Origin: Christiangramia salexigens
Lineage (GTDB): Bacteria; Bacteroidota; Bacteroidia; Flavobacteriales; Flavobacteriaceae
Reading direction: 5' to 3'
Assembly (NCBI RefSeq): GCF_001889005.1
Contig: NZ_CP018153.1
Location: forward strand, 1,646,501-1,710,500
Length of the DNA stretch: 64,000 nt
Under the pieces are notes generated by a model. That model ran no database searches, had not been told where the DNA came from, and worked only from the letters and a program-made list of their open reading frames with translations. The position numbers and the translations under genes are program-made. Shown here one piece after another: positions 21,593-58,012 of this stretch. The first letter of the stretch is position 1. Every line of letters starts with the position of its first letter.

Positions 21593-21606
21593 AACCTAAT
21601 GGAAAT

Positions 21607-43658: not shown

Positions 43659-43663
43659 AGCTC

Positions 43664-44680
43664 CTAAATACTTTGAATTTGATTTTTCCTATTGATCTTT
43701 CGCGGACTATAATCCCTTGCCACCTTTGCGATGGCTTTGATGTGTTCGGGAGTGGTTCCACAACAACCTCCAAGAATATTTACGAGTGCCTTATCGAGAT
43801 ACTCTTTTACCTGAGCAGCCATCTGATTGGCCGACTGATCATATTCTCCAAATGCATTAGGTAAACCCGCATTGGGGTAAGCTGAAACTCCAAAATCAGT
43901 AATTCTGGCAATCGCTTCTAAATGTGGGGTAAGCTGTTTCGCTCCCAATGCACAATTGAAGCCAATGCTTAACAATGGAATATGAGAAACCGAAATAAGA
44001 AAGGCCTCTGCAGTTTGACCGGATAGCGTTCTGCCGGAAGCATCGGTAATTGTACCGCTAACCATCACAGGAATATCTAGCGCCAGTTCTTCTTTAAGCT
44101 CATCTATTGCAAACAAGGCCGCTTTTGCATTGAGGGTATCGAATACTGTTTCTACCAGTAATATATCCACACCTCCATCTATTAGAGCCCTTGCCTGTTC
44201 CTTATAAGCATTTTGTAATTGAACAAAGGAAATGGCGCGATAGCCGGGATCATTCACATCCGGAGACATGCTGGCCGTTTTATTAGTTGGTCCCATCGCT
44301 CCCGCTACAAATCGGGGTTTGGAAGGTTCTGCCTCTGATACTTCCAGAGCAACTTTCTTTGCGATCCTTGCCGACTCATAGTTAAGTTCATAAACCAGCT
44401 CTTCCATTTTATAATCGGCCATAGCGATACTGGTGCCGGAAAAGGTATTGGTTTCAACAATATCTGCTCCTGCTTCGAAATACTTCCTGTGAATTTCGGC
44501 GATAGCATCAGGCTGAGTGATAGACAAAAGGTCATTATTCCCTTTCAGAGAAGCAGACCAGTTCGCAAATCTTTTTCCACGGAAATCTTCTTCAGAGAAT
44601 TTATATTCCTGAAGCATAGTGCCCATGGCACCATCCAGAATTAATATTTTTTTGGAGAGTTGCTCTTCTATTTTTGACAT
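43664..44680 (-). CDS. metH: Methionine synthase, homocysteine-binding part
   Basis: A 338-residue homocysteine S-methyltransferase domain equal to module 1 of Met[10 protein letters not shown] opens the barrel, and the zinc-binding cysteines are in [13 protein letters not shown] and [11 protein letters not shown]. It works with the downstream 892-residue protein. The SAM-I riboswitch lies 50-155 nt upstream. Confidence 0.95.
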
Positions 44681-44732
44681 TTGGTTTAATATAAAACGCT
44701 ATCAAAAAAAGAAGAAAGAAAAGAAATCTTTA

Positions 44733-44836
44733 GTTATCTATCCAAGCTAGTTCGCTTAGTAGAATGTAGCACCTTCTCCGAAGGAGGGTTGCTAAGGTTT
44801 CACTGGGTCTAATCCCTCAACCTTTCTTGATAACAG
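44733..44836 (-). ncRNA. SAM-I (S-box) riboswitch before metH
   Basis: On the minus strand the core contains GTTATC/GATAAC as P1, GGTTGAGGGATTAGACCC, CAGTGAAACCTTAGCAACC and GGTGCTACATTC, the conserved segments of the S-box aptamer. It precedes split metH and metF. No clear terminator follows the aptamer before the start codon at 44680; only a pyrimidine-rich stretch is present. Control may therefore act at translation initiation, but this was not resolved. Confidence 0.95.
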
Positions 44837-44863
44837 ATATTAGTAAATAATGAACTTACAAGG

Positions 44864-44895
44864 CAAATATACAGTTATAATATACCTGATTGCAA
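44864..44895 (-). promoter_or_regulatory. Promoter of the SAM-I/metH/metF transcript
   Basis: On the minus strand TTG (44893-44895), 21 bp, TATATTTG (44864-44871). The same -7 octamer is used before queA and before the tandem leader peptides. Transcription would start just before the riboswitch. The promoter lies directly behind the osmC gene end. Confidence 0.65.
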
Positions 44896-44912
44896 TGTTT
44901 TAGATAAAATTT

Positions 44913-45341
44913 CTAAGACAAAATCTTTGAATTCAGCTCTACAGAATAACTGATCTCTGCTGCCTTTTCCAGCATTTTTGAAACCGAACAATATTTATCC
45001 ATAGAAAGCTTTACAGCCCTTAGTGCCTTAGCTTCGGGAACATCCCCTTTAAGATTAAATTTGATATGGATCTTCTTGAAAACATTTGGTACTGCACCAT
45101 CTTCACGAAAGCCTTCAACCTCAACCTGAATATCCTCAAGTTCGTGTTGCTGCTTTTTTAAGATCATTACCACATCTATACTACTGCAACCAGCTATTCC
45201 GCGAAGTAACAGATCCATAGGACTTGACCCCTTAGGTTCCTCTTCAGATTTATTATCTAACAGGACAATATCCCCTCTTTCATTTTTTGTTTCAAAAAGG
45301 TAATTATCGTTTAATCTCTTTAAACTGATCTTCATATTCAA
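44913..45341 (-). CDS. OsmC family protein
   Basis: A 142-residue OsmC/Ohr-type protein: SSPMDLLLRGIAGCSSIDVVMILKKQ holds the first conserved cysteine, and AVKLSMDKYCSVSKMLEKAAEI the second. Such proteins reduce organic peroxides with a cysteine pair. It lies between the ferredoxin-NADP reductase gene and metH and may belong to the sulfur operon; 109 nt separate it from the upstream gene. Confidence 0.9.
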   Translation of the reverse strand: MNMKISLKRLNDNYLFETKNERGDIVLLDNKSEEEPKGSSPMDLLLRGIAGCSSIDVVMILKKQQHELEDIQVEVEGFREDGAVPNVFKKIHIKFNLKGDVPEAKALRAVKLSMDKYCSVSKMLEKAAEISYSVELNSKILS

Positions 45342-45450
45342 AAATTTTGATCAAAGTTAATGAATCTCTTTAATTGACCCTTCGTCTAGCTGAACTTGTT
45401 TCAGTTATTCAAGGGATTCCGAAATATAAGGCTGTGCGACGATTAAACAT

Positions 45451-46515
45451 TTATACCTCTATACTTTGGACCACCTCTCTCTTTGCCTCCTTTTTTGAAC
45501 CATCAAAACCTTCAACACCACCAACGGTAGTATATTTTAAAACATATTTTTTGTCCGGATAAATTTTCTGATAAGCGCTTTGGCACATGATCGCTGCTTC
45601 ATGAAAACCGGAAAGGATAAGCTTTAATTTTCCTTTATACGTATTCACATCACCAATTGCATAAACTCCCGGAATATTGGTTTGGTAATCATAAGAATTA
45701 TCCACCTTGATCGCATTCTTCTCTATTTCCAGTCCCCAGTTTCCAATTGGACCCAGTTTAGGAGATAAACCGAACAGGGGTATAAAATTATCCACCGACT
45801 TAAATTCTTCCCCTCTGGCTTTGTCCTTATGCCTTATAACCACATTCTCGAGATTATATTCTCCTTCAATGCCTACAACCTCTGCATTGGTGATCATTTC
45901 AATTTTCCCCAGCTTGGCCAACTCTGAAACTCTTTCTACAGAATCCAAAGCTCCACGAAATTCTTTTCTTCTGTGAACCAGGGAAACCTCTGCAGCTACA
46001 TCTGCCAGATAGATCGCCCAATCCAAAGCTGAATCTCCACCACCTGCAATGACCACTTTTTTATCCCGGTATTCCTCCGGATTTTTTATGAAATAAGAAA
46101 CACCTTTATCTTCAAAATCTGAAATATTCGGGATAGGGGGTTTTCTCGGCTCGAAAGATCCCAAACCTCCTGCAATAGCAACTACAGGTGCGTGGTGCTG
46201 AGTTCCTTTATTGGTGGTCACAATAAAAGTGCCATCATCCAGTTTTTCCAAGGTCTCTGCACGTTCTCCCAGCGTAAATCCCGGCTCGAATGGTTTTATT
46301 TGTTCCATAAGATTATTCACCAGATCTCCGGCAAGAATCTCCGGAAATGCAGGGATGTCATAAATAGGTTTTTTTGGATAGATCTCTGAACATTGTCCAC
46401 CTGGTTGTGGCAAAGCATCTATCAGGTGTGCTTTCAACTTCAGGAGTCCGGCTTCAAAAACAGTAAATAGCCCAGTGGGTCCTGCTCCAATTATAAGTAT
46501 GTCTGTTTTAATCAT
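45451..46515 (-). CDS. Ferredoxin-NADP reductase, thioredoxin reductase-like type
   Basis: A 354-residue flavoprotein. FAD motif IIGAGPTGLFTVFEAG, NADPH motif VVIAGGGDSALDWAIYLAD, and a second FAD motif PGVYAIGDVNTYKGKLKLIL. It lacks the CXXC disulfide of thioredoxin reductase, as in the TrxR-like ferredoxin-NADP reductases. Overlapping the siroheme synthase gene by 8 nt, it is probably the electron source for the sulfite reductase of the same operon, through ferredoxin. Confidence 0.9.
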   Translation of the reverse strand: MIKTDILIIGAGPTGLFTVFEAGLLKLKAHLIDALPQPGGQCSEIYPKKPIYDIPAFPEILAGDLVNNLMEQIKPFEPGFTLGERAETLEKLDDGTFIVTTNKGTQHHAPVVAIAGGLGSFEPRKPPIPNISDFEDKGVSYFIKNPEEYRDKKVVIAGGGDSALDWAIYLADVAAEVSLVHRRKEFRGALDSVERVSELAKLGKIEMITNAEVVGIEGEYNLENVVIRHKDKARGEEFKSVDNFIPLFGLSPKLGPIGNWGLEIEKNAIKVDNSYDYQTNIPGVYAIGDVNTYKGKLKLILSGFHEAAIMCQSAYQKIYPDKKYVLKYTTVGGVEGFDGSKKEAKREVVQSIEV

Positions 46516-47098
46516 TTTTCTCTTTTTTTACGATTAGGGATTCTGTTATTTTATTCATTTTATCCACCTTGACTTCGAAATCGCCTTTAATGGTTTTTCG
46601 GTATTCATTTAAATTTTCTACCATCTCATTTACATTCTCGGGTATTACTTCCTCAAAGAACTGCCTTAACCTTTTAGCTGTGGTAGGAGACTTACCGTTG
46701 GTAGAGATGGCAATTTTTACATGCCCCTTATTTACTATGCCACCCATATAAAAATCACATAACTCTGGAGTATCGGCAATATTAGCGAGCAAAAAGCGCT
46801 TTTTAGCATGTTTGTAAACCCGCCTATTCAGCCTCTCGTTATTCGTTGCAGCTATCACAAAATGTCGTTTTTTTAAATACTTCTTTTTGTATACACCTTT
46901 AATAAGTTTTACTCCATGTTTATTCGCCAACTCCTTCGTCGCTGGCAAAAACCATTTGGCTACAACCTTAACATTGGCATTCGGACTGGACTTCAAAAGA
47001 AAATGTAATTTCTCATGTCCAACATTCCCTCCTCCAACAACAAGAATATTCAGTTTATTGACCTTGAGAAAAACAGGATATAATTCATTTCTTTCCAT
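46508..47098 (-). CDS. Precorrin-2 dehydrogenase / siroheme synthase
   Basis: A 196-residue protein equal to the N-terminal half of CysG. It has LYPVFLKVNKLNILVVGGGNVGHEK (NAD-binding), ATNNERLNRRVYKHAKK and GKSPTTAKRLRQFFEE. It oxidises precorrin-2 and may insert iron to give siroheme, the cofactor of the upstream sulfite reductase. It overlaps the reductase-partner gene downstream by 8 nt. Confidence 0.93.
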   Translation of the reverse strand: MERNELYPVFLKVNKLNILVVGGGNVGHEKLHFLLKSSPNANVKVVAKWFLPATKELANKHGVKLIKGVYKKKYLKKRHFVIAATNNERLNRRVYKHAKKRFLLANIADTPELCDFYMGGIVNKGHVKIAISTNGKSPTTAKRLRQFFEEVIPENVNEMVENLNEYRKTIKGDFEVKVDKMNKITESLIVKKEKND

Positions 47099-47109
47099 AA
47101 TCTCATTTT

Positions 47110-47907
47110 TTAGGCTACTCCTATCCTTACCAAGTCAGATCTTACTGACTTAGAATTTGAGTTGAAGTTTTGAACAGCTTTTTTTAATACATTCCTTTCC
47201 TTTACAACTTCTCCAATCACTATAATCGCCGGAGCCTTCAGATCTTTTTCCGCCACCACACTTTCTATGGTTTTAATGGTTCCAAAACCGGAGCTTTCAT
47301 TAAGTGTGGTTCCATTCTGAATTACTCCAACAGGAATATTTTCTTTTCCACACCTGCTAAAAACCTTGACAATTTCAGCCAGCTTACCCATCCCCATCAA
47401 GATCACTACAGTAGCTGTAGATTGCGCCGCAAGCCGAACATCATTAGACAATTTTCTCTGAGATGTTGTACCGGTTATAACCCAAAAACTTTCTGAAGTG
47501 CCTCTTTGAGTGAGAGGTATTCCAACATTAGCCGGAACCGCAATAGAAGAGGTAATCCCCGAAACAACTTCTGTCTCCAGACCATTATCATTGGCAAAGG
47601 TTACTTCTTCTGAGCCCCTCCCAAATATGAAAGGATCTCCCCCTTTTAATCTAACCACATGACCCTGTGCCAGAGCATATTTCACTATTAGTTCATTGAT
47701 CTCATCCTGAGAAAATCGGTGTTTCCCTTTCCTTTTCCCCACGAAGATGTGCTCTGCCTGAGGCGCAAATTCCAAAAGTTCCCTGTTTATAAGCGCATCG
47801 TAAAGAACAACTTGAGCTGCTCTTAAGGTTTTAACCGCCTTTACGGTGATTAAATCTGGATCACCCGGCCCAGCTCCAACCACGCTTAATTTTGGTGTAT
47901 TATACAT
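47110..47907 (-). CDS. cobA: Uroporphyrinogen-III C-methyltransferase
   Basis: About 265 residues. PKLSVVGAGPGDPDLITVKAVKTLRAA, VLYDALIN, VRLKGGDPFIFGRG and GITSSIAVPANVGIPLTQRG are the SAM and substrate motifs of SUMT. The start at 47907 is preferred because the family begins with the SVVGAGPGD strand and a perfect AAAGGAGGT stands 6 nt before this ATG. The reading frame could also start at 47961. The enzyme methylates uroporphyrinogen III on the way to siroheme. It overlaps the end of the sulfite reductase gene. Confidence 0.93.
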   Translation of the reverse strand: MYNTPKLSVVGAGPGDPDLITVKAVKTLRAAQVVLYDALINRELLEFAPQAEHIFVGKRKGKHRFSQDEINELIVKYALAQGHVVRLKGGDPFIFGRGSEEVTFANDNGLETEVVSGITSSIAVPANVGIPLTQRGTSESFWVITGTTSQRKLSNDVRLAAQSTATVVILMGMGKLAEIVKVFSRCGKENIPVGVIQNGTTLNESSGFGTIKTIESVVAEKDLKAPAIIVIGEVVKERNVLKKAVQNFNSNSKSVRSDLVRIGVA

Positions 47908-49993
47908 CTTGTACCTCCTTTGTTCTATAGGCATCCGCTCTCTTAAGGAACAAATGCGCATCCTCTAAATATTTATTTGCAAATTCCGCCGTAGGTTTAT
48001 TTTCGTTCAGCTGATAAGCGAACTCACGAAATGAAGTGGCCAATTCTATTTTTCCCGTTTCAACGAATAATTGATCGAACTGGGAAATGATCCCGGCCTG
48101 AGTATTGGTTTTTACTTCCTCTGCTAATAATAAGGCTTTAGCCGAATTCACAATAGAGGTATAGGAATGATAGATACTATCTGACCAGGCTTTTCTTGAA
48201 ATTGCCGATTTCGCATTATCTATTTTCTCCTCACTTTCAAACAATAAGGTAGAGATAAGATCTATAACAACCCCTGCACATTCTCCTACTCCTACAGCTT
48301 TTATATAGGGTTTTTCATGACCCCAGTCTACAAAGTCATTTTCGGTAAGCTTGGAGGTATCTGCCAGATCCTTTAATAGTTCATAGAAATACGTCTTTTC
48401 CTTACGAACATAGTAATCAGCAAATTGCTCCTGCTGTCCAGCATTAGCTTCGAAATCATTTAACAGCAACCTTAAAGCCTCTGGGCCTCTTTTACTTGGC
48501 ACTTTAATAACCTTATCGGCAAATCTGCCTTTTCCGTCCCCAAGAGTCCCTCCCCCGAGAAGAACCTGAAGTGCGGGCGCCACAGTTTTTCCGACTTTTA
48601 TGGACATTCCCTGAAACCCGATTTCCGCCATATTATGCTGGCCGCAGGCATTCATACATCCACTTATTTTAATGGTAATATCCTTACCGTTAACGAATTG
48701 TGGATATTCATCTTTAAGTACATCTTCAAGTACCTCTGCGATTCCAGTACTACTCGCAATCCCCAGGTTACAGGTATCAGTCCCGGGACATGCCGTAATA
48801 TCTACTGTCTTATTGTAACCAACTTCGGCGTACCCAAGCTTTTTCAACTTGGTATAAAAAAATGGTAAAAGTGCCTCGCGTACATGCCGAATTAGAATAT
48901 CCTGTCTTAAACTTAGCCTGATCTCATTCCCCGCATACTTTTTAATCAAATCTGCCAGTTGTCTGGCTCCGTCTGTATAAAAATCACCCAAAGGAACCCG
49001 AATTCCAATCGCAAATAATCCTTCTTGTTTCTGCGGAATAACATTTGTTTTCATCCAATTTTCAAACTCTTTCAAGTCCTCAATTTCTACTTCAGGTATT
49101 TCGATCTCCAGTAGATTGGGTGCTTTTTCGAATTTTTCACCCGGAAAATCGGGATAATCTCCCGAAAGAGCCGTTTTTTCGGCTTCTACAAGTTTTACAA
49201 AGGCATCTTTCCCAATATCTTTTATAAGAAATTTCATTCTCGCTTTTAACCTTTTGGCTCTTTCTCCATGTCGATCAAAAACCCTTAGTACACCTTCGAT
49301 TAGCGGAAGGATTTTGGATGCTTCAATAAATTCATAAAGCTCATCTGCATGACGTGGTTGGGATCCCAAGCCACCGCCAAGCATCACTTTAAAACCTCTT
49401 CGTCCATCCTGTATCTTAGCGATAAAACCAAGATCATGGATATAACTCAAAGCGGTATCCTCTGGTGTAGCTGAAAAGGAAATTTTAAACTTTCTACCCA
49501 TTTCCTGGCAAATTGGATTTCTTAGAAAGAATCTAAAAGCTGCATCTGCATAAGGAGATACATCAAATGCTTCACCTACATCCACACCCGCAGTTGGTGA
49601 AGCCGTAATATTTCGAACCGTATTACCGCAGGCCTCCCTTAATGTTATATCATCCTTTTCCAGTTGTGCCCATAGCTCCGGAGTCCGGTCTAGACTAACG
49701 TGATGGATCTGGATGTCCTGACGGGTGGTGATATGTAGCCTGCCTGTTGAATATTCATCAGATACATTGGCAATTCGATGCAATTGTTCTGAAGTCACTT
49801 TACCAAACGGAAGTTTAATACGAACCATTTGAACACCAGCCTGTCGTTGTCCGTAAACACCACGTGCAAGACGCAGGCTTCGGAACTTTTCCTCATCGGC
49901 TTTTCCTTCGCGGAAGAGCCTAATCTTTTTCTCTAGATCCAGAATATCTTGTTCTACAACTGGATTTTCAATTTCGGTTCTAAAACTTTGCAT
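47900..49993 (-). CDS. Ferredoxin-type sulfite reductase with C-terminal HEPN-like domain
   Basis: A 697-residue nitrite/sulfite reductase. Two ferredoxin-like halves (RLHITTRQDIQIHHV and IRLSLRQDILIRHV) flank the siroheme-[4Fe-4S] ligands, C-X5-C in TACPGTDTC and C-X3-C in SGCMNACGQH. The catalytic part ends near 550. About 130 extra residues follow, helical, from VGVGECAGVVIDLIS to FLKRADAYR, and resemble a HEPN domain. In a cys operon with siroheme genes it reduces sulfite to sulfide. An attenuator precedes it. Confidence 0.93.
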   Translation of the reverse strand: MQSFRTEIENPVVEQDILDLEKKIRLFREGKADEEKFRSLRLARGVYGQRQAGVQMVRIKLPFGKVTSEQLHRIANVSDEYSTGRLHITTRQDIQIHHVSLDRTPELWAQLEKDDITLREACGNTVRNITASPTAGVDVGEAFDVSPYADAAFRFFLRNPICQEMGRKFKISFSATPEDTALSYIHDLGFIAKIQDGRRGFKVMLGGGLGSQPRHADELYEFIEASKILPLIEGVLRVFDRHGERAKRLKARMKFLIKDIGKDAFVKLVEAEKTALSGDYPDFPGEKFEKAPNLLEIEIPEVEIEDLKEFENWMKTNVIPQKQEGLFAIGIRVPLGDFYTDGARQLADLIKKYAGNEIRLSLRQDILIRHVREALLPFFYTKLKKLGYAEVGYNKTVDITACPGTDTCNLGIASSTGIAEVLEDVLKDEYPQFVNGKDITIKISGCMNACGQHNMAEIGFQGMSIKVGKTVAPALQVLLGGGTLGDGKGRFADKVIKVPSKRGPEALRLLLNDFEANAGQQEQFADYYVRKEKTYFYELLKDLADTSKLTENDFVDWGHEKPYIKAVGVGECAGVVIDLISTLLFESEEKIDNAKSAISRKAWSDSIYHSYTSIVNSAKALLLAEEVKTNTQAGIISQFDQLFVETGKIELATSFREFAYQLNENKPTAEFANKYLEDAHLFLKRADAYRTKEVQDV

Positions 49994-50013
49994 GGTTACT
50001 AATATTTAAAATG

Positions 50014-50052
50014 AAAAAAGTCCTTTTAAGATGACACTTAAAAGGACTTTTT
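50014..50052 (-). terminator. Attenuator terminator before sulfite reductase
   Basis: AAAAAGTCCTTTTAAG/CTTAAAAGGACTTTTT forms a perfect 16-bp stem with a 6-nt loop and a T run on the minus strand. The 5' arm (CTTTTAAG, 50037-50044) can pair instead with CTTAGAAG (50075-50082), which overlaps the stop codon of the leader peptide. Confidence 0.9.
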
Positions 50053-50077
50053 ATAATTGGGTTTATAAAAGAAGCTT

Positions 50078-50125
50078 CTAAGCATGTTGCGAATTACGCA
50101 TGCACATACAGATCGAATATTCCAT
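50078..50125 (-). CDS. Cys/Met leader peptide (attenuator of sulfite reductase genes)
   Basis: A 15-codon frame from ATG at 50125 to TAG at 50078, MEYSICMCMRNSQHA, with four Cys/Met codons in a row. It starts 20 nt after the cysN stop and is followed by a strong terminator before the sulfite reductase gene. The stop codon lies in the antiterminator segment, so a ribosome reaching the stop would favour termination, while one stalled at the Cys/Met codons would leave the segment free. No promoter was seen just upstream, so this is probably an attenuator inside the cys operon. Confidence 0.85.
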   Translation of the reverse strand: MEYSICMCMRNSQHA

Positions 50126-50144
50126 GATTATTTTTCTCATATAA

Positions 50145-51389
50145 TTATCCTATAAAGCCGACTCCAGCAGTTGTATTGGATTGAGTATCAATTAAAATAA
50201 ATCTTCCATTATCGCGGTTCTTCTTGAAATCATCGGCAAAAATCGGTTTGCTTAATTTAATCGCTACTTTACCGATCTCATTCAATTTAAGTGAGGATGC
50301 ATCAGTGAGACCACTAAAATTGGTATTCATGTAACCTTCTACCCTGTCTATCTTAGCTAAGACTCCATTAGTATTATGTTGTAAGATGTATTTTTTACCG
50401 GGCAATAATTCAGTTTTATCCATCCAGCAAAGAGTCGCATTAACTACCTTATGAGATTCGGGAACCTCAGATGATTTTACTAAAATATCTCCACGCGCCA
50501 CGTTAATATCGTCGGCAAGGCTAATTGTAACTGAGCTACCAGCAGAAGCCTCTTCAAATGATTCCTTGAAAACCTGAATATTTTGAATCACAGATTTGGT
50601 CAAGCTCGGCAAAACTGTAATCTCATCGCCTACCTTGAGACTGCTTCCACTAATTTTACCCGCATAACCTCTAAAATCATGAAACTCCTCTGTTTTAGGC
50701 CTTATTACCGTTTGAACCGCAAATCTGGCCGATTCCTCTTCTTGAAATCCATCAACCTTAATACCTTCAAGATGTTCCAAAATCGTATTACCCTGATACC
50801 AGGGCATAGCTATGGACCTTTCGGCTATATTTTCACCCCATAGGGCGCTTACAGGAATAAATGTGATTTGTTGATCATTAAAATCACTTTTACTCAGTAG
50901 CTTCTGAAAATCGACAACGATATCATTAAAAACCTCTTCAGAATAATTCACTAGATCCATTTTATTGACAGCTACCACGATCTGCTTTACTCTCAAAAGG
51001 TTATTGATAAAGAAATGTCTAAAGGTTTGTTCTATCACCCCTTTTCTGGCATCAATTAGTATAATAGACGCCTGTGAAGTTGAGGCTCCGGTCACCATAT
51101 TTCGGGTATATTCCACATGACCAGGTGTATCGGCAATGATATAACTCTTTTTTCTTGTAGAAAAATAGATATGAGCCACATCGATAGTTATTCCTTGTTC
51201 CCGTTCTGCCACCAATCCATCTGTAGCCAGTGAGAAATCTAAATAATCAAGCCCCTTCCTTCTACTGTTTTTCTCTATCGCTTCTAATTTATCCGAAGTC
51301 AGAGATTGGGTATCATATAAAAGTCTTCCTATTAAAGTACTCTTACCATCGTCTACACTTCCTGCTGTTGCTATTTTTAAAACTTCCAT
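50145..51389 (-). CDS. cysN: Sulfate adenylyltransferase subunit 1
   Basis: About 414 residues, an EF-Tu-like GTPase: G1 GSVDDGKSTLIGRLL, G3 DTPGHVEYTRNM, G4 VAVNKMDLV. It drives ATP sulfurylase with CysD. There is no C-terminal APS kinase. The ATG at 51389 is preferred over an in-frame TTG at 51407. It follows cysD closely. Confidence 0.95.
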   Translation of the reverse strand: MEVLKIATAGSVDDGKSTLIGRLLYDTQSLTSDKLEAIEKNSRRKGLDYLDFSLATDGLVAEREQGITIDVAHIYFSTRKKSYIIADTPGHVEYTRNMVTGASTSQASIILIDARKGVIEQTFRHFFINNLLRVKQIVVAVNKMDLVNYSEEVFNDIVVDFQKLLSKSDFNDQQITFIPVSALWGENIAERSIAMPWYQGNTILEHLEGIKVDGFQEEESARFAVQTVIRPKTEEFHDFRGYAGKISGSSLKVGDEITVLPSLTKSVIQNIQVFKESFEEASAGSSVTISLADDINVARGDILVKSSEVPESHKVVNATLCWMDKTELLPGKKYILQHNTNGVLAKIDRVEGYMNTNFSGLTDASSLKLNEIGKVAIKLSKPIFADDFKKNRDNGRFILIDTQSNTTAGVGFIG

Positions 51390-51407
51390 CGCTTTCTTTT
51401 TTCCCAA

Positions 51408-52310
51408 TTAAAAATATCCCTGTTGTTTTCTGGTCTCCATTGCAGCCTCAGACCTTTTATCATCTATTCTGGCTCCCCTTTCTGATATGGATGAATCTCT
51501 GATTTCTTGTACAATTTTCTCTATAGAATCGGCTTCCGATTCTACCGCAGCGGTACAAGTCATATCTCCTACAGTTCTAAATCTTACTTTTCTTCGCACG
51601 GGGAATTCATCTTCTTCACGATAAACATAATCAGAGGCTGACCATAGAAGCCCATCTCTTTCAAATACACTCCTCTCATGTGCGAAATAGATTCTTGGGA
51701 TTTCAATCTCCTCCTTTTGGATATATCTCCACACATCCAGTTCTGTCCAATTGGAAATAGGGAAAACGCGTACATTCTGTCCTAGATCAATTCTTCCATT
51801 AAGCAAATCGAAAACTTCAGGCCGTTGGTTTTTCTCATCCCATTCTCCAAAATCATTTCGTATGGAGAATATCCTTTCCTTTGCCCTGGCCTTTTCTTCA
51901 TCCCTTCTTGCACCACCTATACAGGCATCAAATTTGAATTCTTCAATGGCATCCAGTAATGTATTGGTTTGAAGTGAATTTCGACTTGAATATTTTCCGG
52001 TTTCCTCTATAGACTTTCCATTATCTATATCATCCTGAACGTGCCTAACTATAAGCTCTAAACCCAACTCATCTACCAAATTATCCCTGAATTCTATCGT
52101 TTCCGGAAAATTATGACCCGTATCAACATGTAAAAGTGGAAAAGGAATTTTCGCAGGAAAAAAAGCCTTTTGAGCTAATCTCACCAGAGTGATAGAATCT
52201 TTCCCTCCTGAAAAAAGTAATACCGGATTTTCAAACTGAGCTACAACCTCTCTGAATATATAGACAGCTTCGCTTTCCAGTTTATCTTGTTTTAATAATT
52301 TTCTCATCAT
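51408..52310 (-). CDS. cysD: Sulfate adenylyltransferase subunit 2
   Basis: A 300-residue PP-loop ATP pyrophosphatase (LLFSGGKDSITLVRLA) with the typical SIRNDFGEWDEKNQRPE, FPISNWTELDVWRYI and RGARIDDKRSEAAMETRKQQGYF. It adenylates sulfate to APS together with CysN. It lies 10 nt after cysH. Confidence 0.96.
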   Translation of the reverse strand: MMRKLLKQDKLESEAVYIFREVVAQFENPVLLFSGGKDSITLVRLAQKAFFPAKIPFPLLHVDTGHNFPETIEFRDNLVDELGLELIVRHVQDDIDNGKSIEETGKYSSRNSLQTNTLLDAIEEFKFDACIGGARRDEEKARAKERIFSIRNDFGEWDEKNQRPEVFDLLNGRIDLGQNVRVFPISNWTELDVWRYIQKEEIEIPRIYFAHERSVFERDGLLWSASDYVYREEDEFPVRRKVRFRTVGDMTCTAAVESEADSIEKIVQEIRDSSISERGARIDDKRSEAAMETRKQQGYF

Positions 52311-52320
52311 TTAATTCTCT

Positions 52321-52950
52321 TTAAGCGTGCAATCCACATTCTCTGTTCCCTAATACTTTTGTTGGATCGAAATATTTAAATTCATTAGGCAAATTATGCT
52401 CTTCCAGATACGCATGAAGTTTCTTATCACTCCAATAATAAAAAGGACTAACCTTCAAAACCCCATCCTTGCTATAACTCAAAACATCTATGCTATCTCT
52501 GAAAGCAGTTTGCCCTTTTCTTAGATTTGTAAACCACACATCCGGATTTTGCTGCGTCATCGCTCTTATAAAAGGCTCAAGTTTTACTTGTTCTGTAAAC
52601 TCAGCATGTTGCGGACTATTTATTTCTGGTATCCCTCCGAAGAATGAATCCCGATATGCCGCAGTCTGCTTTGGTACATATAACTTGACATTAAGCTTCA
52701 AAAGATCTATAACCTCCCCGGCATGCTTGTAAGTCTCCCGTGTATTATAGCCCGTATCACACCATATCACCGTTATATTAGGTTCTATTATATTACAAGC
52801 ATGAAGAATTGAAGCCTCATATGGCCTGAAGTTGGTTGTAACTACCGGTTTATCGCTTATACCGATTGCCCATTTAATTATGTCTTCAGGATGATATTCC
52901 CTGAATTTTTTATTAAGGCTGTCTAATTCCTCTTTGTTATAATATTTCAT
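52321..52950 (-). CDS. cysH: Phosphoadenylylsulfate reductase-type protein
   Basis: About 209 residues from the ATG at 52950, which starts 2 nt after the DUF2061 stop; the frame is open to 52983 but that start would overlap. Motifs: WCDTGYNTRETY, LRKGQTAFRDSID, and the catalytic C-terminal ECGLHA. The CC...CC cysteines that bind [4Fe-4S] in APS reductases are absent, which points to the PAPS-dependent type, although no APS kinase gene is in this cluster. Confidence 0.92.
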   Translation of the reverse strand: MKYYNKEELDSLNKKFREYHPEDIIKWAIGISDKPVVTTNFRPYEASILHACNIIEPNITVIWCDTGYNTRETYKHAGEVIDLLKLNVKLYVPKQTAAYRDSFFGGIPEINSPQHAEFTEQVKLEPFIRAMTQQNPDVWFTNLRKGQTAFRDSIDVLSYSKDGVLKVSPFYYWSDKKLHAYLEEHNLPNEFKYFDPTKVLGNRECGLHA

Positions 52951-52952
52951 AT

Positions 52953-53204
52953 TTAATCTTTCGCAAAATTTATCACATTCCAAAGTCTCTCATGCCAAAA
53001 GTATAATACCATCTTGGTCACTAATTCCACGGCACCTATAGCAAAAGCTGTCTGGGGTTTCCCTGTTAAATACCAGGAAATACAAATCGTATCTATGGTA
53101 CCTACAAACCTCCAACTAATCGTTTTAGCTATACTCCTTAATGGCTTATCTGATGCCTTATCTTTCCTAAAGGAATCTTCGGCTTTAGACTGATTAAAAA
53201 ACAT
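52953..53204 (-). CDS. DUF2061 membrane protein
   Basis: An 83-residue protein with SIAKTISWRFVGTIDTICISWYL and AIGAVELVTKMVLYFWHERLW, the hallmark of DUF2061. Two short membrane segments are likely. The family is often found with sulfate assimilation genes in Bacteroidota; no function is known. It is the first gene after the cys promoter. Confidence 0.9.
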   Translation of the reverse strand: MFFNQSKAEDSFRKDKASDKPLRSIAKTISWRFVGTIDTICISWYLTGKPQTAFAIGAVELVTKMVLYFWHERLWNVINFAKD

Positions 53205-53224
53205 TTCCCTTATCGTTTTAATTT

Positions 53225-53281
53225 ACCCTATAGGTTTACTAGGTTATTTACAAAACTATACTTCAAGATCAATTTGACCAA
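53225..53281 (-). promoter_or_regulatory. cys operon promoter with candidate Rrf2 operator
   Basis: On the minus strand TTGG (53278-53281), 19 bp, TAGTTTTG (53251-53258). Just downstream, about at the start point, lies ACCTAGTAAACCTATAGGGT (53225-53244 on the minus strand), with the repeated ACCTA and palindromic CCTATAGG. Such a site over the start point fits repression, and a Rrf2 regulator is encoded next to it. Confidence 0.5.
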
Positions 53282-53320
53282 TCAATTACACTATAAATAA
53301 ATTATTTTAACACTTTTAAT

Positions 53321-53737
53321 TTACTGCGAAAATGCGATATCGCTTAAGGTGTTTTCGCCAAGAACGTTCAAAGAGGCATCCCTCACCTGGATCATTAATC
53401 TATGGACTGAACAGGTATTCTCATCGGGACAATCATCACATCTTTCATAATAATTAAGACTTACACAAGGAACCATCGCAATTGGCCCTTCAAGAACTCT
53501 AATTACCGAAGTCATTTTTATATCCTCTGGTTGCTTAATAAGATAATACCCCCCTCCTTTTCCTTTTTTTGACCCCAGAAATCCGGACTTTCTGAGTTCA
53601 AGAAGTATACTCTCCAGAAATTTAAGTGAGATATTTTCACTTTCTGATATCTCTGAAGTTTGTACTGGTTTCCTTTCTTTTATCCTGGCGATATAAGTCA
53701 GGGCCTTAATTCCGTATTTGGTCTTTTTTGAAAGCAT
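53321..53737 (-). CDS. Rrf2 family transcriptional regulator
   Basis: A 138-residue winged helix regulator: LSKKTKYGIKALTYIA at the start, the recognition helix region ISLKFLESILLELRKSGFLGSKKGKGGGYYL, and a C-terminal cluster of cysteines (VPCVSLNYYERCDDCPDENTC). The cysteines may bind a metal or FeS cluster as in IscR, or sense O-acetylserine as in CymR. It lies 33 nt after metZ and just before the cys promoter, so it probably controls the cys genes. Confidence 0.9.
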   Translation of the reverse strand: MLSKKTKYGIKALTYIARIKERKPVQTSEISESENISLKFLESILLELRKSGFLGSKKGKGGGYYLIKQPEDIKMTSVIRVLEGPIAMVPCVSLNYYERCDDCPDENTCSVHRLMIQVRDASLNVLGENTLSDIAFSQ

Positions 53738-53770
53738 AGAACGAATATAAAAATATTCCCCTTGCCTCTT

Positions 53771-54934
53771 TTAATTGTTTAATGCGTTTTTCATATCCTT
53801 TATTATATCATCTATATGTTCCAGTCCTGCCGAAACTCTTACTAATCCCTTTGAAATTCCCGCTGCCTCTAGTTCTTCATCAGAAAGTTTACTATGGGTC
53901 GTTGATGCCGGATGAGTAACAATGGTTCTTGTATCTCCAAGATTAGCAGACCTTGAACAAAGCTTTAGATTATCTATGAATCTGCGGCCTGATTCAATCC
54001 CCCCTTTTAACTGAAAGGCTACGATATTGCCTCCCAATCTCATTTGTTTTTTTGCAACCTCATACTGTGGATGAGACCTCAAAAAAGGATATTTCACTGC
54101 TTCAATACTCACCTCTTTCTCAAGAAATTCAGCCAGTTTCAAGGCATTCTCACAATGCTTTTCCAATCTTACCGGCAAAGTTTCAAGGCTTTTAGACAGA
54201 ACCCAGGCGTTAAATGGAGATAGTGCAGGCCCTGTATTTCTGCTGAAAAGATAAATTTCCCTAATCAGCTCCTCCGTACCAACAGTGACTCCACCCAGAA
54301 CTCTCCCTTGCCCGTCTATCATTTTCGTCGCCGAATGTATCACAAGGTCGGCTCCAAATTTGATAGGATTTTGAATATATGGCGTTGCAAAACAATTGTC
54401 TATAATTAGCAGTAGTCCATGTTTTCTGGCTATTTGCCCCAGCAATTCAAGATCCAGAATATCTACACCAGGATTTGTAGGGGATTCTGCAAACAATATT
54501 TTCGTTTCCGGTTTTATTAAGGCTTCTATTTCATTCACATGGTTAACATTAAAATAGGAATGTGTAATATTCCATTTCGGGAAAAATTTAGTAAACAAAC
54601 TATGCGTTGAACCAAACACTGATCTTGCTGATATCACATGATCTCCGCTATTCAATAAAGCAGCAAGACTGGAAAACACTGCAGACATCCCCGTCGCGAA
54701 AGCATATCCAGCCTCTGCTCCTTCCATTTTAGCGACCTTCTCAACGAATTCTGAAGTATTCGGATTGGAAAATCTACTATAGATATTCCTTTCTTTTTCT
54801 TCAGCAAAGCTAGCTCTCATCTCCTCGGCGTCATCAAACAGATAACTGGAAGTTAAGTACAAAGGCACTGAATGCTCTTTAAACTGGGTTCTTTCCAATT
54901 GTGTGCGTACGGCTATTGTTTCAAAATTTTCCAT
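53771..54934 (-). CDS. Trans-sulfuration PLP enzyme (MetZ/MetB-like)
   Basis: A 387-residue Cys/Met metabolism PLP enzyme. The active-site lysine is in LVIHSATKMIDGQGRVLGG. GYAFATGMSAVFSSLAALL and NLGDTRTIVTHPASTTHSKL are typical. It could be O-acetylhomoserine or O-succinylhomoserine sulfhydrylase, or cystathionine synthase. Next to metX and metY, direct sulfhydrylation is likely. Confidence 0.85.
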   Translation of the reverse strand: MENFETIAVRTQLERTQFKEHSVPLYLTSSYLFDDAEEMRASFAEEKERNIYSRFSNPNTSEFVEKVAKMEGAEAGYAFATGMSAVFSSLAALLNSGDHVISARSVFGSTHSLFTKFFPKWNITHSYFNVNHVNEIEALIKPETKILFAESPTNPGVDILDLELLGQIARKHGLLLIIDNCFATPYIQNPIKFGADLVIHSATKMIDGQGRVLGGVTVGTEELIREIYLFSRNTGPALSPFNAWVLSKSLETLPVRLEKHCENALKLAEFLEKEVSIEAVKYPFLRSHPQYEVAKKQMRLGGNIVAFQLKGGIESGRRFIDNLKLCSRSANLGDTRTIVTHPASTTHSKLSDEELEAAGISKGLVRVSAGLEHIDDIIKDMKNALNN

Positions 54935-54939
54935 CTGCT

Positions 54940-55956
54940 CTATTTAAGGCTTAAAACTTTATTTCTTTTCTCTGCAACACCGTAGAATCTATCCTCTTTT
55001 ATTTCAAAAACCGGCTTCAGAAATCTGACTAATTGCTCGGTTTCTATCAGGAAGGCATCATGCCCATGTATAGAATCTATTTCATAATAACTTACCTCAG
55101 GCTTAAACCGTGATAGTCCTTTATATGCCTTTCTGTTTTCTTCTGCGAGAAAAAAGAGATCCGAATTAACCGTAACGATATGAATATGTCCCTTGATCTG
55201 CCCGGCATATTGAATGTGATCACCTTTTCCTCCACTAATATCAATTGTCGTTAGAAGATGATTCAGAAACTTATAAGAATCCAGATTGAATCGGTTCTTT
55301 AATTTTTCCCCATGATGCAACAACCAGTTCTCCACCTCAAAAACCTGCTTTCCTTCATTCTTTTTATTTTCGAACTTTTGTGCCAGTGACTGCGGAGTCC
55401 TATAAAAGGTCATTGCATGCATACGCGCGTCGTGAACCGGATTTGACGAATTATTCAGAATATGTTCTTGTATTCTACAGTTCGCCACTAACCAGTCTGT
55501 AGCTTTAAAATCCGTAGCTACCGGGATAATATGCTTAGCCAGTGCCGGCTTTAATACGGCAAGTTCCCAGGCCAAGGCTCCGCCAATAGAACCCCCTATG
55601 ATCGCATACAATTTATCAATATTCAGTTTCTCCAACACTTTTGCCTGAAGTCTGGCGATATCTTTTAGTTTAAAATCCTTGTATTCCTTAAAAACTTCAT
55701 GCCCCTTATAACCATTCCCGGGAATATTGATTGCTAATACACAATACTTCCTTAGATCTATACATTTATCTTCCCCTATCAGATCTTTCCACCATCCAAA
55801 TTCCCCGGTCACTTCTGAATTCCCTGTGAGTGCATGATTCACAAGCACTACAGGAGCTTCAGTAGGTTTATTTCCGAAAAACTGGAAACTAAGTCGGATA
55901 TCCTGAACTTTCCCGGCAGAATTCTCAAATTGGTCTATAACAATTTCCCTTAGCAT
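54940..55956 (-). CDS. Homoserine O-acetyltransferase-type alpha/beta-hydrolase
   Basis: A 338-residue alpha/beta-hydrolase of the MetX family: LVNHALTGNSEV, the nucleophile in IIGGSIGGALAWELA, and the catalytic histidine in IDSIHGHDAFLIE. It activates homoserine with acetyl-CoA. It lies 5 nt before metZ and 62 nt after metY, from which it is separated by a strong hairpin. Confidence 0.85.
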   Translation of the reverse strand: MLREIVIDQFENSAGKVQDIRLSFQFFGNKPTEAPVVLVNHALTGNSEVTGEFGWWKDLIGEDKCIDLRKYCVLAINIPGNGYKGHEVFKEYKDFKLKDIARLQAKVLEKLNIDKLYAIIGGSIGGALAWELAVLKPALAKHIIPVATDFKATDWLVANCRIQEHILNNSSNPVHDARMHAMTFYRTPQSLAQKFENKKNEGKQVFEVENWLLHHGEKLKNRFNLDSYKFLNHLLTTIDISGGKGDHIQYAGQIKGHIHIVTVNSDLFFLAEENRKAYKGLSRFKPEVSYYEIDSIHGHDAFLIETEQLVRFLKPVFEIKEDRFYGVAEKRNKVLSLK

Positions 55957-55969
55957 ATTTCTTTTTTTT

Positions 55970-55998
55970 ATCCGGGAGAAACAAGATACCTCCCGGAT
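55970..55998 (-). promoter_or_regulatory. Intercistronic hairpin between metY and metX
   Basis: ATCCGGGAG/CTCCCGGAT forms a perfect 9-bp stem. On the transcribed minus strand it is followed by As, not Ts, so it is not a terminator. It may stabilise the upstream mRNA or direct processing. Confidence 0.55.
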
Positions 55999-56018
55999 TT
56001 TTAACCTAAAACAACGAA

Positions 56019-57311
56019 TTAAACAAGTACTGTATTCCTGATCTTACTGAATGCTTCCTTAAGATCGTTCTGAAGGTCCTCTATATCTTCCAGACCAACC
56101 GAGAGCCTTATGAGGTCTGGTGTTACTCCTGTATCTGCCTGTTCCTTTTCATTTAATTGCTGATGTGTTGTACTGGCAGGATGAATTATGAGAGATTTGG
56201 TATCACCTATATTTGCCAGAAGAGAAAAGATCTGAGTCTCATCTACCACAGTTTTGGCCGATAGGTAACCACCTTTTAATCCAAATGTTACCACTCCGCT
56301 TTGACCTTCCGGTAGATATTTATCGGCCAGAGCTTTATATTTACTGGATTCCAGTCCCGGGTAATTTACCCAAGCCACCTCTTCCTGACCTTCCAGCCAC
56401 TTAGCAAGTTTTAGAGCATTGCTGCTATGTTCCTTTATTCTAACTTTTAAGGTTTCCAGCCCCTGAATTATTTGAAAGGCATTATAAGGACTTAAAGCTG
56501 CTCCATGATCGCGTAAACCTTCTATTCTAACCTTGGCTATAAATGCTGCTTCTTTAAGCACATCGTGATAAACCAGACCATGATAACCAGGTGAAGGCTC
56601 TGTAAATTCCGGGAATTTTCCATTGGCCCAGTCGAATTTACCGGCATCGATAATTACACCACCAAGCGAAGATCCATTTCCGCTAATATATTTGGTTAGC
56701 GAATGTATTACGATATCTGCTCCATGTTCTATAGGTTTCAGAAGATAAGGGGTAGCCACAGTATTGTCTACTATAAATGGCACCTTAAAAGCTTTTGCTT
56801 CTTTGGATATACCTTTCAAATCGAGAACATCGAGTTTTGGATTACCCACAGATTCAGCGAAAAACACTCTCGTATTTTCTTTCGCCGCTTTGGAAAAATT
56901 CGCGGGGTCTGAAGGATCTACAAAAGTTGTTGTAATGCCAAGGCGTGGAAGCGTATTTTTAAATAGATTATACGTCCCTCCATACAAACTGTTTGAAGAT
57001 ACTATATGATCCCCGGCTTTTAGAAGGGTTAATAATGTAGTACTGGTTGCTGCGGTTCCTGAAGCGGTAACAACCGCTGCGATTCCACCTTCAAGGGCAG
57101 CAAGACGTTGTTCCAGTACATCATTGGTAGGATTATTAATCCTTGTATAAATATAACCTGGTTCTGCCAGTGAAAATAGATTGGCTGCATGGTCGGAATC
57201 TTTAAAAACATAAGATGTAGATTGATAAATGGGAACTGCTCTTGTTCCTCCGTTAGAATTTACATCGTGACCTGTATGAAGAGCTTGGGTTGAAAATTTT
57301 TGAGTACTCAT
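56019..57311 (-). CDS. metY: O-acetylhomoserine sulfhydrylase
   Basis: A 430-residue PLP enzyme, the typical length for MetY. FSTQALHTGHDVNSNGGTRAVPIYQSTSY opens the protein, ADIVIHSLTKYISGNGSSLGG holds the PLP lysine, and LANIGDTKSLIIHPASTTHQQL closes the active site. It makes homocysteine from O-acetylhomoserine and sulfide. It is the first structural gene after the tandem leader peptides; terminator A ends 28 nt before its ATG. Confidence 0.93.
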   Translation of the reverse strand: MSTQKFSTQALHTGHDVNSNGGTRAVPIYQSTSYVFKDSDHAANLFSLAEPGYIYTRINNPTNDVLEQRLAALEGGIAAVVTASGTAATSTTLLTLLKAGDHIVSSNSLYGGTYNLFKNTLPRLGITTTFVDPSDPANFSKAAKENTRVFFAESVGNPKLDVLDLKGISKEAKAFKVPFIVDNTVATPYLLKPIEHGADIVIHSLTKYISGNGSSLGGVIIDAGKFDWANGKFPEFTEPSPGYHGLVYHDVLKEAAFIAKVRIEGLRDHGAALSPYNAFQIIQGLETLKVRIKEHSSNALKLAKWLEGQEEVAWVNYPGLESSKYKALADKYLPEGQSGVVTFGLKGGYLSAKTVVDETQIFSLLANIGDTKSLIIHPASTTHQQLNEKEQADTGVTPDLIRLSVGLEDIEDLQNDLKEAFSKIRNTVLV

Positions 57312-57339
57312 GATTTCTTTTTGTTAAATGTTATTCAAT

Positions 57340-57378
57340 AAAAAAGTCCCCTTGATTTGCTATTACCAGGGGGACTTT
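57340..57378 (-). terminator. Attenuator terminator A before metY
   Basis: On the minus strand AAAGTCCCCCTG/CAAGGGGACTTT with a T run. The 10-nt segment CTGGTAATAG (57360-57369) in its 5' arm and loop can pair with CTATTGCCAG (57416-57425) in the leader peptide A frame: 10 bp with one G-U. That alternative helix would prevent the terminator. Confidence 0.92.
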
Positions 57379-57400
57379 AAAATTGAAACAGATAACTAAT

Positions 57401-57496
57401 CTATATCTTCAAAATCTGGCAATAGCGTTGCATGTGACACATACACATCACAAACATCATTCTACACATTGCCATTATTTGATTTGAAAATTTCAT
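57401..57496 (-). CDS. Met/Cys leader peptide A (attenuator of metYXZ)
   Basis: A 31-codon frame from ATG at 57496 to TAG at 57401 with ten Met (start included) and four Cys residues. Its core AMCRMMFVMCMCHM is followed by the codons that hold the antiterminator segment (57416-57425). A second ATG at codon 8 (57475) could also start it. A ribosome stalled on Met or Cys codons would let the antiterminator form. Confidence 0.9.
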   Translation of the reverse strand: MKFSNQIMAMCRMMFVMCMCHMQRYCQILKI

Positions 57497-57563
57497 GTTT
57501 ACTTTTTTAATCCTGAAAAATTTAGTCTTGTTCTTTTCTAAGCTTACTTAGAATGTACCGCAT

Positions 57564-57594
57564 AAAAAAAGCCGCTGCGGTTGGCAGCGGCTTT
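57564..57594 (-). terminator. Attenuator terminator B
   Basis: On the minus strand AAAGCCGCTGC/GCAGCGGCTTT, a perfect 11-bp stem with a 5-nt loop and seven Ts. CGCTGC in the 5' arm can pair with GCAGCG (within 57632-57639) in the leader B reading frame. Confidence 0.92.
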
Positions 57595-57616
57595 ATGCAA
57601 TATTATCGTTTCAGAT

Positions 57617-57685
57617 TTATGCAATAGAGTGCGCTGCGGAGGTTTTCCACATCATGCACATCATATTAGCAAATCTTCTGATCAT
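57617..57685 (-). CDS. Met/Cys leader peptide B (upstream attenuator of metYXZ)
   Basis: A 22-codon frame from ATG at 57685 to TAA at 57617 whose core is NMMCMMW. The ACC-TCC-GCA-GCG codons after it hold the antiterminator segment. It lies about 20 nt after a good promoter and before terminator B, about 120 nt upstream of leader peptide A. No promoter was seen between the two units, so a polymerase must pass both terminators to reach metY. Confidence 0.88.
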   Translation of the reverse strand: MIRRFANMMCMMWKTSAAHSIA

Positions 57686-57706
57686 TATTTCTAATTATTT
57701 CGTTTA

Positions 57707-57714
57707 CAAATATA
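57707..57714 (-). promoter_or_regulatory. -7 promoter box of the metY leader transcript
   Basis: TATATTTG on the minus strand, a full TAnnTTTG match, 21 nt before the ATG of leader peptide B. A TTTG lies 21 bp further upstream. It is divergent to the metK promoter. Confidence 0.6.
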
Positions 57715-57854: not shown

Positions 57855-57870
57855 TAATCGAATTATTGAA

Positions 57871-57945
57871 AGGGACAGATTTGACTGATTGCAACCCTAA
57901 AATATATGGCTAAGTACCATATATGCTAAAATGCTAAAGCAGTAG
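57871..57945 (+). ncRNA. SAM-II riboswitch before metK
   Basis: AGGG/CCCT forms P1 around the conserved ACAGATTTGACTGATTGCA loop, and AAATGCTAAAGCAGT gives the conserved 3' part; ACTG (57884-57887) pairs with CAGT (57940-57943) as the pseudoknot. A small hairpin ATATATGG/CCATATAT is inserted in the linker. The pattern fits the SAM-II aptamer known from alphaproteobacteria and Bacteroidota. The start codon is 68 nt downstream, and no terminator is seen, so translational control is likely. Confidence 0.9.
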
Positions 57946-58012
57946 TTACTACACTCCTATTAGCCTTTCACGTCAAATTTTGCCCATTCTTATAACCTAA
58001 AAAAGTAATTGA

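Follow-up and report, generated by a model that had tools for sequence, protein, structure and literature searches.

Candidate Met/Cys leader-peptide attenuators stand in series before metY in Christiangramia salexigens and related Flavobacteriaceae

In transcription attenuation of the trp/his type, a short leader open reading frame (ORF) rich in the regulated codons lies before genes of the same pathway, and RNA regions 1 to 4 form either a terminator or an antiterminator. For methionine, the RNA-based controls known are chiefly SAM riboswitches and T-boxes, and work by Canestrari et al. from 2020 reportedly concerns mycobacterial cysteine leaders. The mgtCBR leader RNA of Salmonella carries two ORFs that act independently and additively, and the available part of the article describes it as a singular case of attenuators in tandem that respond to different signals (PMC3641672). 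For cysteine, the portion of PMC8632094 available to us describes uORFC-8-2 as a cysteine leader before cysS. In the accessible text of a study of actinobacterial cys leaders, the mycobacterial ones have no conserved terminator hairpin, and the S-box is named as the RNA element that controls the methionine genes of other species (PMC1262725). For Flavobacterium psychrophilum, the available text reports strong indications of attenuation by leader peptides 5′ of amino acid operons; as far as it was available, the main text gave no match for methion or metY, and the supplements may list a metY leader (PMC9723704). The literature that we searched contained no leader-peptide attenuator built on Met codons or placed before metY, and absence there is not absence from print.

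We analyzed a window of 64,000 nucleotides from Christiangramia salexigens (contig NZ_CP018153.1), in which the metY leader lies on the minus strand. The first-pass annotation of this DNA had proposed two leader-peptide attenuators in series before metY, and this proposal stood: the Met/Cys codons are conserved, region 2 and region 3 covary, and a promoter box is found only 5′ of the first leader. The box TATATTTG (57714-57707, minus strand) is of the Bacteroidota type TAnnTTTG, a promoter consensus given in the available part of PMC9723704, and its start lies 29 nt from the ATG of leader B. Leader ORF B (MIRRFANMMCMMWKTSAAHSIA; 57685-57617, minus strand) has 22 codons with the core NMMCMMW, and leader ORF A (MKFSNQIMAMCRMMFVMCMCHMQRYCQILKI; 57496-57401, minus strand) has 31 codons with an MCMCHM core. 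Each frame is followed by an intrinsic terminator with a T run, as had been reported: in B the stem, formed by regions 3 and 4, spans 57594-57568 with the T run extending to 57564, and in A the terminator spans 57377-57344 with the T run extending to 57340 (both minus strand).

The GCAGCG/CGCTGC pairing described for unit B is present, with region 2 (57637-57632, minus strand) inside ORF B, 3′ of the Met codons, and its partner, region 3, at 57589-57584 (minus strand). A 1:2 protector helix, TGTGGA/TCCGCA (57651-57635, minus strand), overlaps the last Met codon and region 2. For unit A, a 10-bp helix with the 5′ arm of the terminator had been described. The pairing itself held up, as 11 pairs with one G-U, between region 2 (GCTATTGCCAG; 57426-57416, minus strand) and region 3 (CTGGTAATAGC; 57369-57359, minus strand); the partner, by contrast, is mainly the terminator loop, with about four paired bases in common with the 5′ arm.

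The gene metY (56019-57311, minus strand), encoding O-acetylhomoserine sulfhydrylase (TIGR01326, 637 bits versus a cut-off of 495), is the first of the cluster. It is followed on the same strand by metX-like, metZ-like, Rrf2-type regulator, DUF2061, cysH-like, cysD and cysN genes (50145-55956), then by a further unit, C, and by the sulfite reductase and siroheme-type genes. CysD, CysN and Rrf2 scored above their cut-offs and DUF2061 above its Pfam gathering score; metX, metZ and cysH scored below the NCBIfam cut-offs. Methionine and cysteine precursors are the products of the metY-metX-metZ-cysH-cysDN cluster, which fits the leader codons. A terminator scan of 44600-57350 on the minus strand returned only unit C and one weak intragenic site; the scan did not return the longer-looped A terminator, so further terminators of that kind may be missed. 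The surrounding region holds three kinds of sulfur sensing: the Met/Cys leaders, a SAM-II riboswitch (57865-57947, plus strand) that precedes metK and diverges from the metY leader, and a SAM-I riboswitch (44731-44836, minus strand) before metH-metF genes. Methionine synthase is encoded there by two ORFs, one for the methyltransferase domain and one for the rest (40980-44680, minus strand).

Like the trp/his attenuators, the locus combines a short leader ORF rich in codons for the cluster's own product, an intrinsic terminator between the leader and the first gene, an antiterminator and genes of the same pathway; in B and A the antiterminator pairing lies 3′ of the codon run and shows covariation, and B has all of regions 1 to 4. 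Unlike those systems, it uses Met and Cys codons, places two or three units in series, and in A and C draws the antiterminator strand mainly from the terminator loop; no 1:2 protector was seen in A. Such a protector is not needed in every known attenuator. With mgtCBR it shares the presence of two leader ORFs in one leader RNA; the signals of mgtCBR are ATP and proline in the part of the source available, whereas both metY leaders carry the same two amino acids, with weights that differ in the window. Short leader ORFs with Cys codons link it to uORFC-8-2 and the actinobacterial cys leaders, for which the available portions of the two sources (PMC8632094 and PMC1262725, respectively) mention no run of Met codons.

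We consider it very likely, judging from the sequence evidence, that the leader works by ribosome-mediated transcription attenuation that senses charging of Met-tRNA and Cys-tRNA, in series (B and A, with C for the sulfite reductase part), and that it stands where other genera have SAM-I. A single promoter would drive the metY-metX-metZ-cys cluster, putatively as one transcript, and transcription would pass attenuator B and then A; for the sulfite reductase part, it would presumably also pass C. With free translation through the Met/Cys codons, a ribosome at the stop codon would cover region 2, and the terminator would form. Under a shortage of charged Met-tRNA or Cys-tRNA, the ribosome is predicted to stall in the codon run and leave region 2 free; region 2 and region 3 would then pair, and RNA polymerase would read through. 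In B, the protector hairpin would keep region 2 closed when no ribosome stalls. The two serial steps may multiply the fold repression, and B and A would probably let the sulfur amino acid gene cluster run only under Met/Cys scarcity.

Through constrained folding with a 28-nt ribosome mask (equilibrium folds of the RNA made before region 4), we obtained 5.8-5.9 of the six region 2:3 pairs in B for a stall at any of codons 8-12, the five Met/Cys codons. With the ribosome at the stop codon no such pair formed, and without a ribosome the protector blocked pairing. In A, stalls at codons 8-20 gave 10.3-10.4 of 11 pairs, a stall at codon 22 gave 4.1, a stall at the Cys codon inside region 2 gave none, and a ribosome at the stop codon left 3.4; free A RNA formed the antiterminator (10.3 of 11 pairs). 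In full-length equilibrium folds the terminator won in B at every stall; in A it did so at every stall other than those at codons 8 and 10. The switch must therefore be kinetic. A kinetic choice between terminator and antiterminator is also part of the trp model.

In B, 97.2% of the region 2:3 cells were paired across 24 sequences, with eight cells changed on both sides and a covariation of 0.175 versus 0.041 in column shuffles, which ignore relatedness; the count of pair types was not above that of the shuffles (212 of 500 as high). Unit A reached 91.6% paired cells in 19 sequences (covariation 0.184 versus 0.120 shuffled), the B protector 91.7% versus 88.8% shuffled (covariation 0.190 versus 0.128), and the B terminator 98.1%, with five pairs changed on both sides. 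We also compared cognate with permuted region 2:3 partners, a test that likewise ignores relatedness: none of 20,000 permutations was as good in B (12 genera), and P was 0.004 in A (seven genera). In three leaders, L111 and L123 for B and L004 for A, the own partner was no better than the average of the others. Run unaided, RNAalifold found the terminator in each of the two alignments and, for B, a portion of the protector; it did not predict the region 2:3 pairing in either alignment.

The reading frame over region 2 can change. In 46 distinct leaders the CCGCAG element of B encodes X-Ala (usually Ser-Ala); in nine others, all of them from records labelled Flavobacterium, it encodes Pro-Gln. 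The TATTGCC element of A encodes Ala-Ile-Ala instead of Tyr-Cys in 3 of 61 leaders (L151, L153 and L215, the last from Salinimicrobium). Since the frame changes while the RNA is kept, what is conserved is the RNA of region 2 and the codons of the Met/Cys run. These changes also bear on whether the leaders might respond not to tRNA charging but to a metabolite or the nascent peptide itself (such as the supply of SAM or formyl-Met), by way of a peptide-specific ribosome arrest. Conserved leader cores would suit such a device, and the AUG runs could conceivably serve as repeated starts. However, Met and Cys differ in order and number from genus to genus, and a change of frame alters the C-terminal residues, which argues against a fixed arrest motif, and we regard arrest as improbable.

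Two ordinary terminators or sources of small RNAs, beside which Met/Cys ORFs arose by accident, would fit the strength of the terminators and the release of terminated RNAs of about 135 and about 360 nt that the position of the box would imply. Yet the pairing partners covary with segments inside the ORFs, and none of 89 SAM-I control loci has a unit, so we judge this account very improbable. Folding was stronger than in dinucleotide shuffles (z of -5.4 for the B stretch and -3.9 for the A stretch). Among 25 terminator-like sites on both strands of the window, four are preceded by a short ORF with at least five internal Met+Cys residues: A (11), B (5), unit C near 50049 (5) and an ORF near 21606 on the plus strand (5), which is lysine-rich and was taken as chance. 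One detection rule, a short ORF with at least four internal Met+Cys residues 5′ of a terminator, found units in 24 of 24 genus loci. Elsewhere in the family it found them in 11 of the 20 loci that lack SAM-I and in none of the 89 that have SAM-I before metY. The earlier statement that chance was unlikely is borne out by the folding scores and by this split. In addition to attenuation by the leader peptides, it is possible that the released RNAs act in trans.

The genus set comprised 24 genomes near Christiangramia/Gramella, all with metY; by its MetY, the genome of the window is closest to this group. Both units occur in 23 of the 24 loci, and the remaining one (L039), cut by a contig end, has A only; unit B with its Met/Cys core was thus found in 23 of 23 loci reaching it and unit A in 24 of 24. 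A lack of conserved Met/Cys codons in related species had been named at the outset as what would speak against the attenuators; the codons are kept in this genus and in further genera. Outside the genus we searched 199 family genomes and examined 109 metY loci, leaving out 26 genomes with matches above 640 bits, three of which (G003, G016 and G181) carry unit B. The 109 loci divided into 89 with the SAM-I (RF00162) pattern at the same place before metY, 11 with units (at least four internal Met+Cys residues), one doubtful (L137, three Met+Cys residues) and eight with neither. Of the loci submitted to Rfam, 17 of 17 with the pattern and 0 of 3 without it were confirmed as SAM-I. By reading, only a B-type unit was present in L025, L082 and L139, and A is degenerate in L020 and L111.

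Among named relatives, 74 of 80 loci and the window could be classified, as 45 leaders, 22 SAM-I and eight neither. Leaders occur in Christiangramia/Gramella, Salegentibacter, Gillisia, Salinimicrobium and Flavobacterium, and SAM-I in Gelidibacter, Winogradskyella, Aquimarina, Robertkochia, Zunongwangia, Nonlabens and others. The leader/SAM-I label requires two changes on a rapidly built MetY tree (a gene tree with SH-aLRT support only, on which gain and loss are indistinguishable). Several single loci stand out in other respects. In F. psychrophilum (L203), which has both units before metY, the B leader frame has no stop and runs into the terminator. In genome G007 one contig carries the leader pair and another carries metY (L006/L159), with, by reading, a transposase-like ORF 3′ of the leader pair and another 5′ of metY; an insertion between leader and gene is possible. 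A contig labelled Bifidobacterium breve (L197) carries a Flavobacterium-like metY and both units and is probably a mislabelled bin.

The presence of SAM-I at the same place in many genera, together with the strong folding of the leader, raises the question of a riboswitch or T-box with incidental ORFs. At Rfam gathering scores, however, no family matched the metY leader, including SAM-I, SAM-II and T-box (SAM-II lies on the other strand only, before metK), and none of the leader loci checked among 20 source sequences had SAM-I directly before metY. A riboswitch would also leave the Met/Cys codons unexplained, and we give it hardly any weight. SAM-I senses SAM directly, without a leader peptide, whereas units B and A are built on leader peptides. 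The B protector, unit C and the occurrence of SAM-I at this place in many other genera had not figured in the first-pass annotation.

We built covariance models of unit B (R1) and unit A (R2). In its own genome R1 scored 128 bits at the metY leader, with the next match at 39 bits, and R2 matched one place. Across 397 family genomes under strict filters, R1 gave 34 matches of at least 52 bits in 22 of 237 genera. Judged from the protein starts, the genes 3′ of these matches were metY-like in 29 cases, metX-like in two, metZ-like in one, a TonB-dependent receptor in one and a transposase-like ORF at a contig end (G007) in one. In 246 genomes of the order, R1 matches outside the family were found in G441 (cysH-like and cysD-like genes, with a second unit), G572 (metY, 49.8 bits) and G420 (no gene identified). 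Another family of the order has units of the B and A types 5′ of cysH-like and cysD-like genes (L269:1240-1560). The genus coded g128, by leader type probably Flavobacterium, has extra B copies before a cysteine/sulfite gene cluster (L267:1281-1411 and L273:1173-1303) and before a TonB-dependent receptor (L275:1137-1261). Low-scoring R1 matches (about 50 bits or less) were often plain terminators, and L270, L272, L280 and L281, which have no Met/Cys leader, were dropped; this inspection left out G419 and G620.

Unit C (50140-50015, minus strand) is a third Met/Cys leader with a terminator, between cysN and sulfite reductase. Its leader ORF MRKIIMEYSICMCMRNSQHA (50140-50078) has five internal Met+Cys residues, region 2 (GCTTAGAAG; 50083-50075) spans the stop codon, region 3 (CTTTTAAGT) lies at 50044-50036, and the terminator spans 50052-50015, all on the minus strand. 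Beyond it, Pfam matches indicate a sulfite/nitrite reductase, a tetrapyrrole methylase, an NAD-binding siroheme-type protein and a pyridine nucleotide oxidoreductase (45451-49993, minus strand; finer names by reading). Of the 23 genus loci that include the sulfite reductase gene, 22 have the unit (the pattern failed in L294), and its model matched 3 of 199 family genomes including its own; the other two are from other genera and carry the unit before the same gene, judged from protein starts. In its region 2:3 alignment 98.2% of cells were paired, no more than in shuffles, because the pairing hardly varies, and no covariation was detected. Repeats of the GTCATGCTGAACTTGTTTCAGCATCTC type lie between unit C and the sulfite reductase gene in L288, L289, L292, L295 and L296.

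In 64 of 82 distinct loci a TAnnTTTG box lies at most 60 nt 5′ of the ATG that opens the first leader, usually 25-30 nt away; extended ORF starts hid it in L002 and L037. Between the units it occurred in 0 of 69 listed intervals, a list in which L151, L153, L197 and L216 have a zero gap (one ORF entered twice) and L237 starts from the wrong ORF. With a box before the first leader and none between the units, B and A probably share one transcript. Their composition bears on the suggestion that two attenuators in series could give an AND-like response to Met and Cys supply. Over the relatives, Met and Cys make up 19.0% and 8.7% of B leaders and 22.7% and 11.4% of A leaders, respectively. These figures are approximate, since the automatic sorting assigned two A leaders and a small number of stray ORFs to B, and one stray ORF to A. 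Both leaders hold both residues in similar shares, which gives no support to AND logic from separate Met and Cys leaders; a shortage of either amino acid should stall both. An OR of Met and Cys shortages, multiplied over two steps, would be expected from these sequences. Against equal weights, B in the window has four Met and one Cys and A has seven Met and four Cys, and some B leaders (L025 and L082) have no Cys; unequal Met/Cys weights of B and A are possible.

These leaders may represent a Met/Cys attenuator regulon of the Flavobacteriales, in which SAM-I is replaced by leader peptides that sense the charging of Met- and Cys-tRNA and serial copies grade one cluster, two gates serving the Met branch and a third opening the costly sulfite reductase part only under deeper shortage. 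This would be the first set of ribosome-mediated attenuators on Met codons, a proposal whose chances we judge to be evenly balanced. With serial attenuators of one kind, a gain through multiplication could be tested directly with reporters. With sensors of SAM and, putatively, of tRNA charge before the same gene in one family, why lineages differ becomes a question that can be asked.
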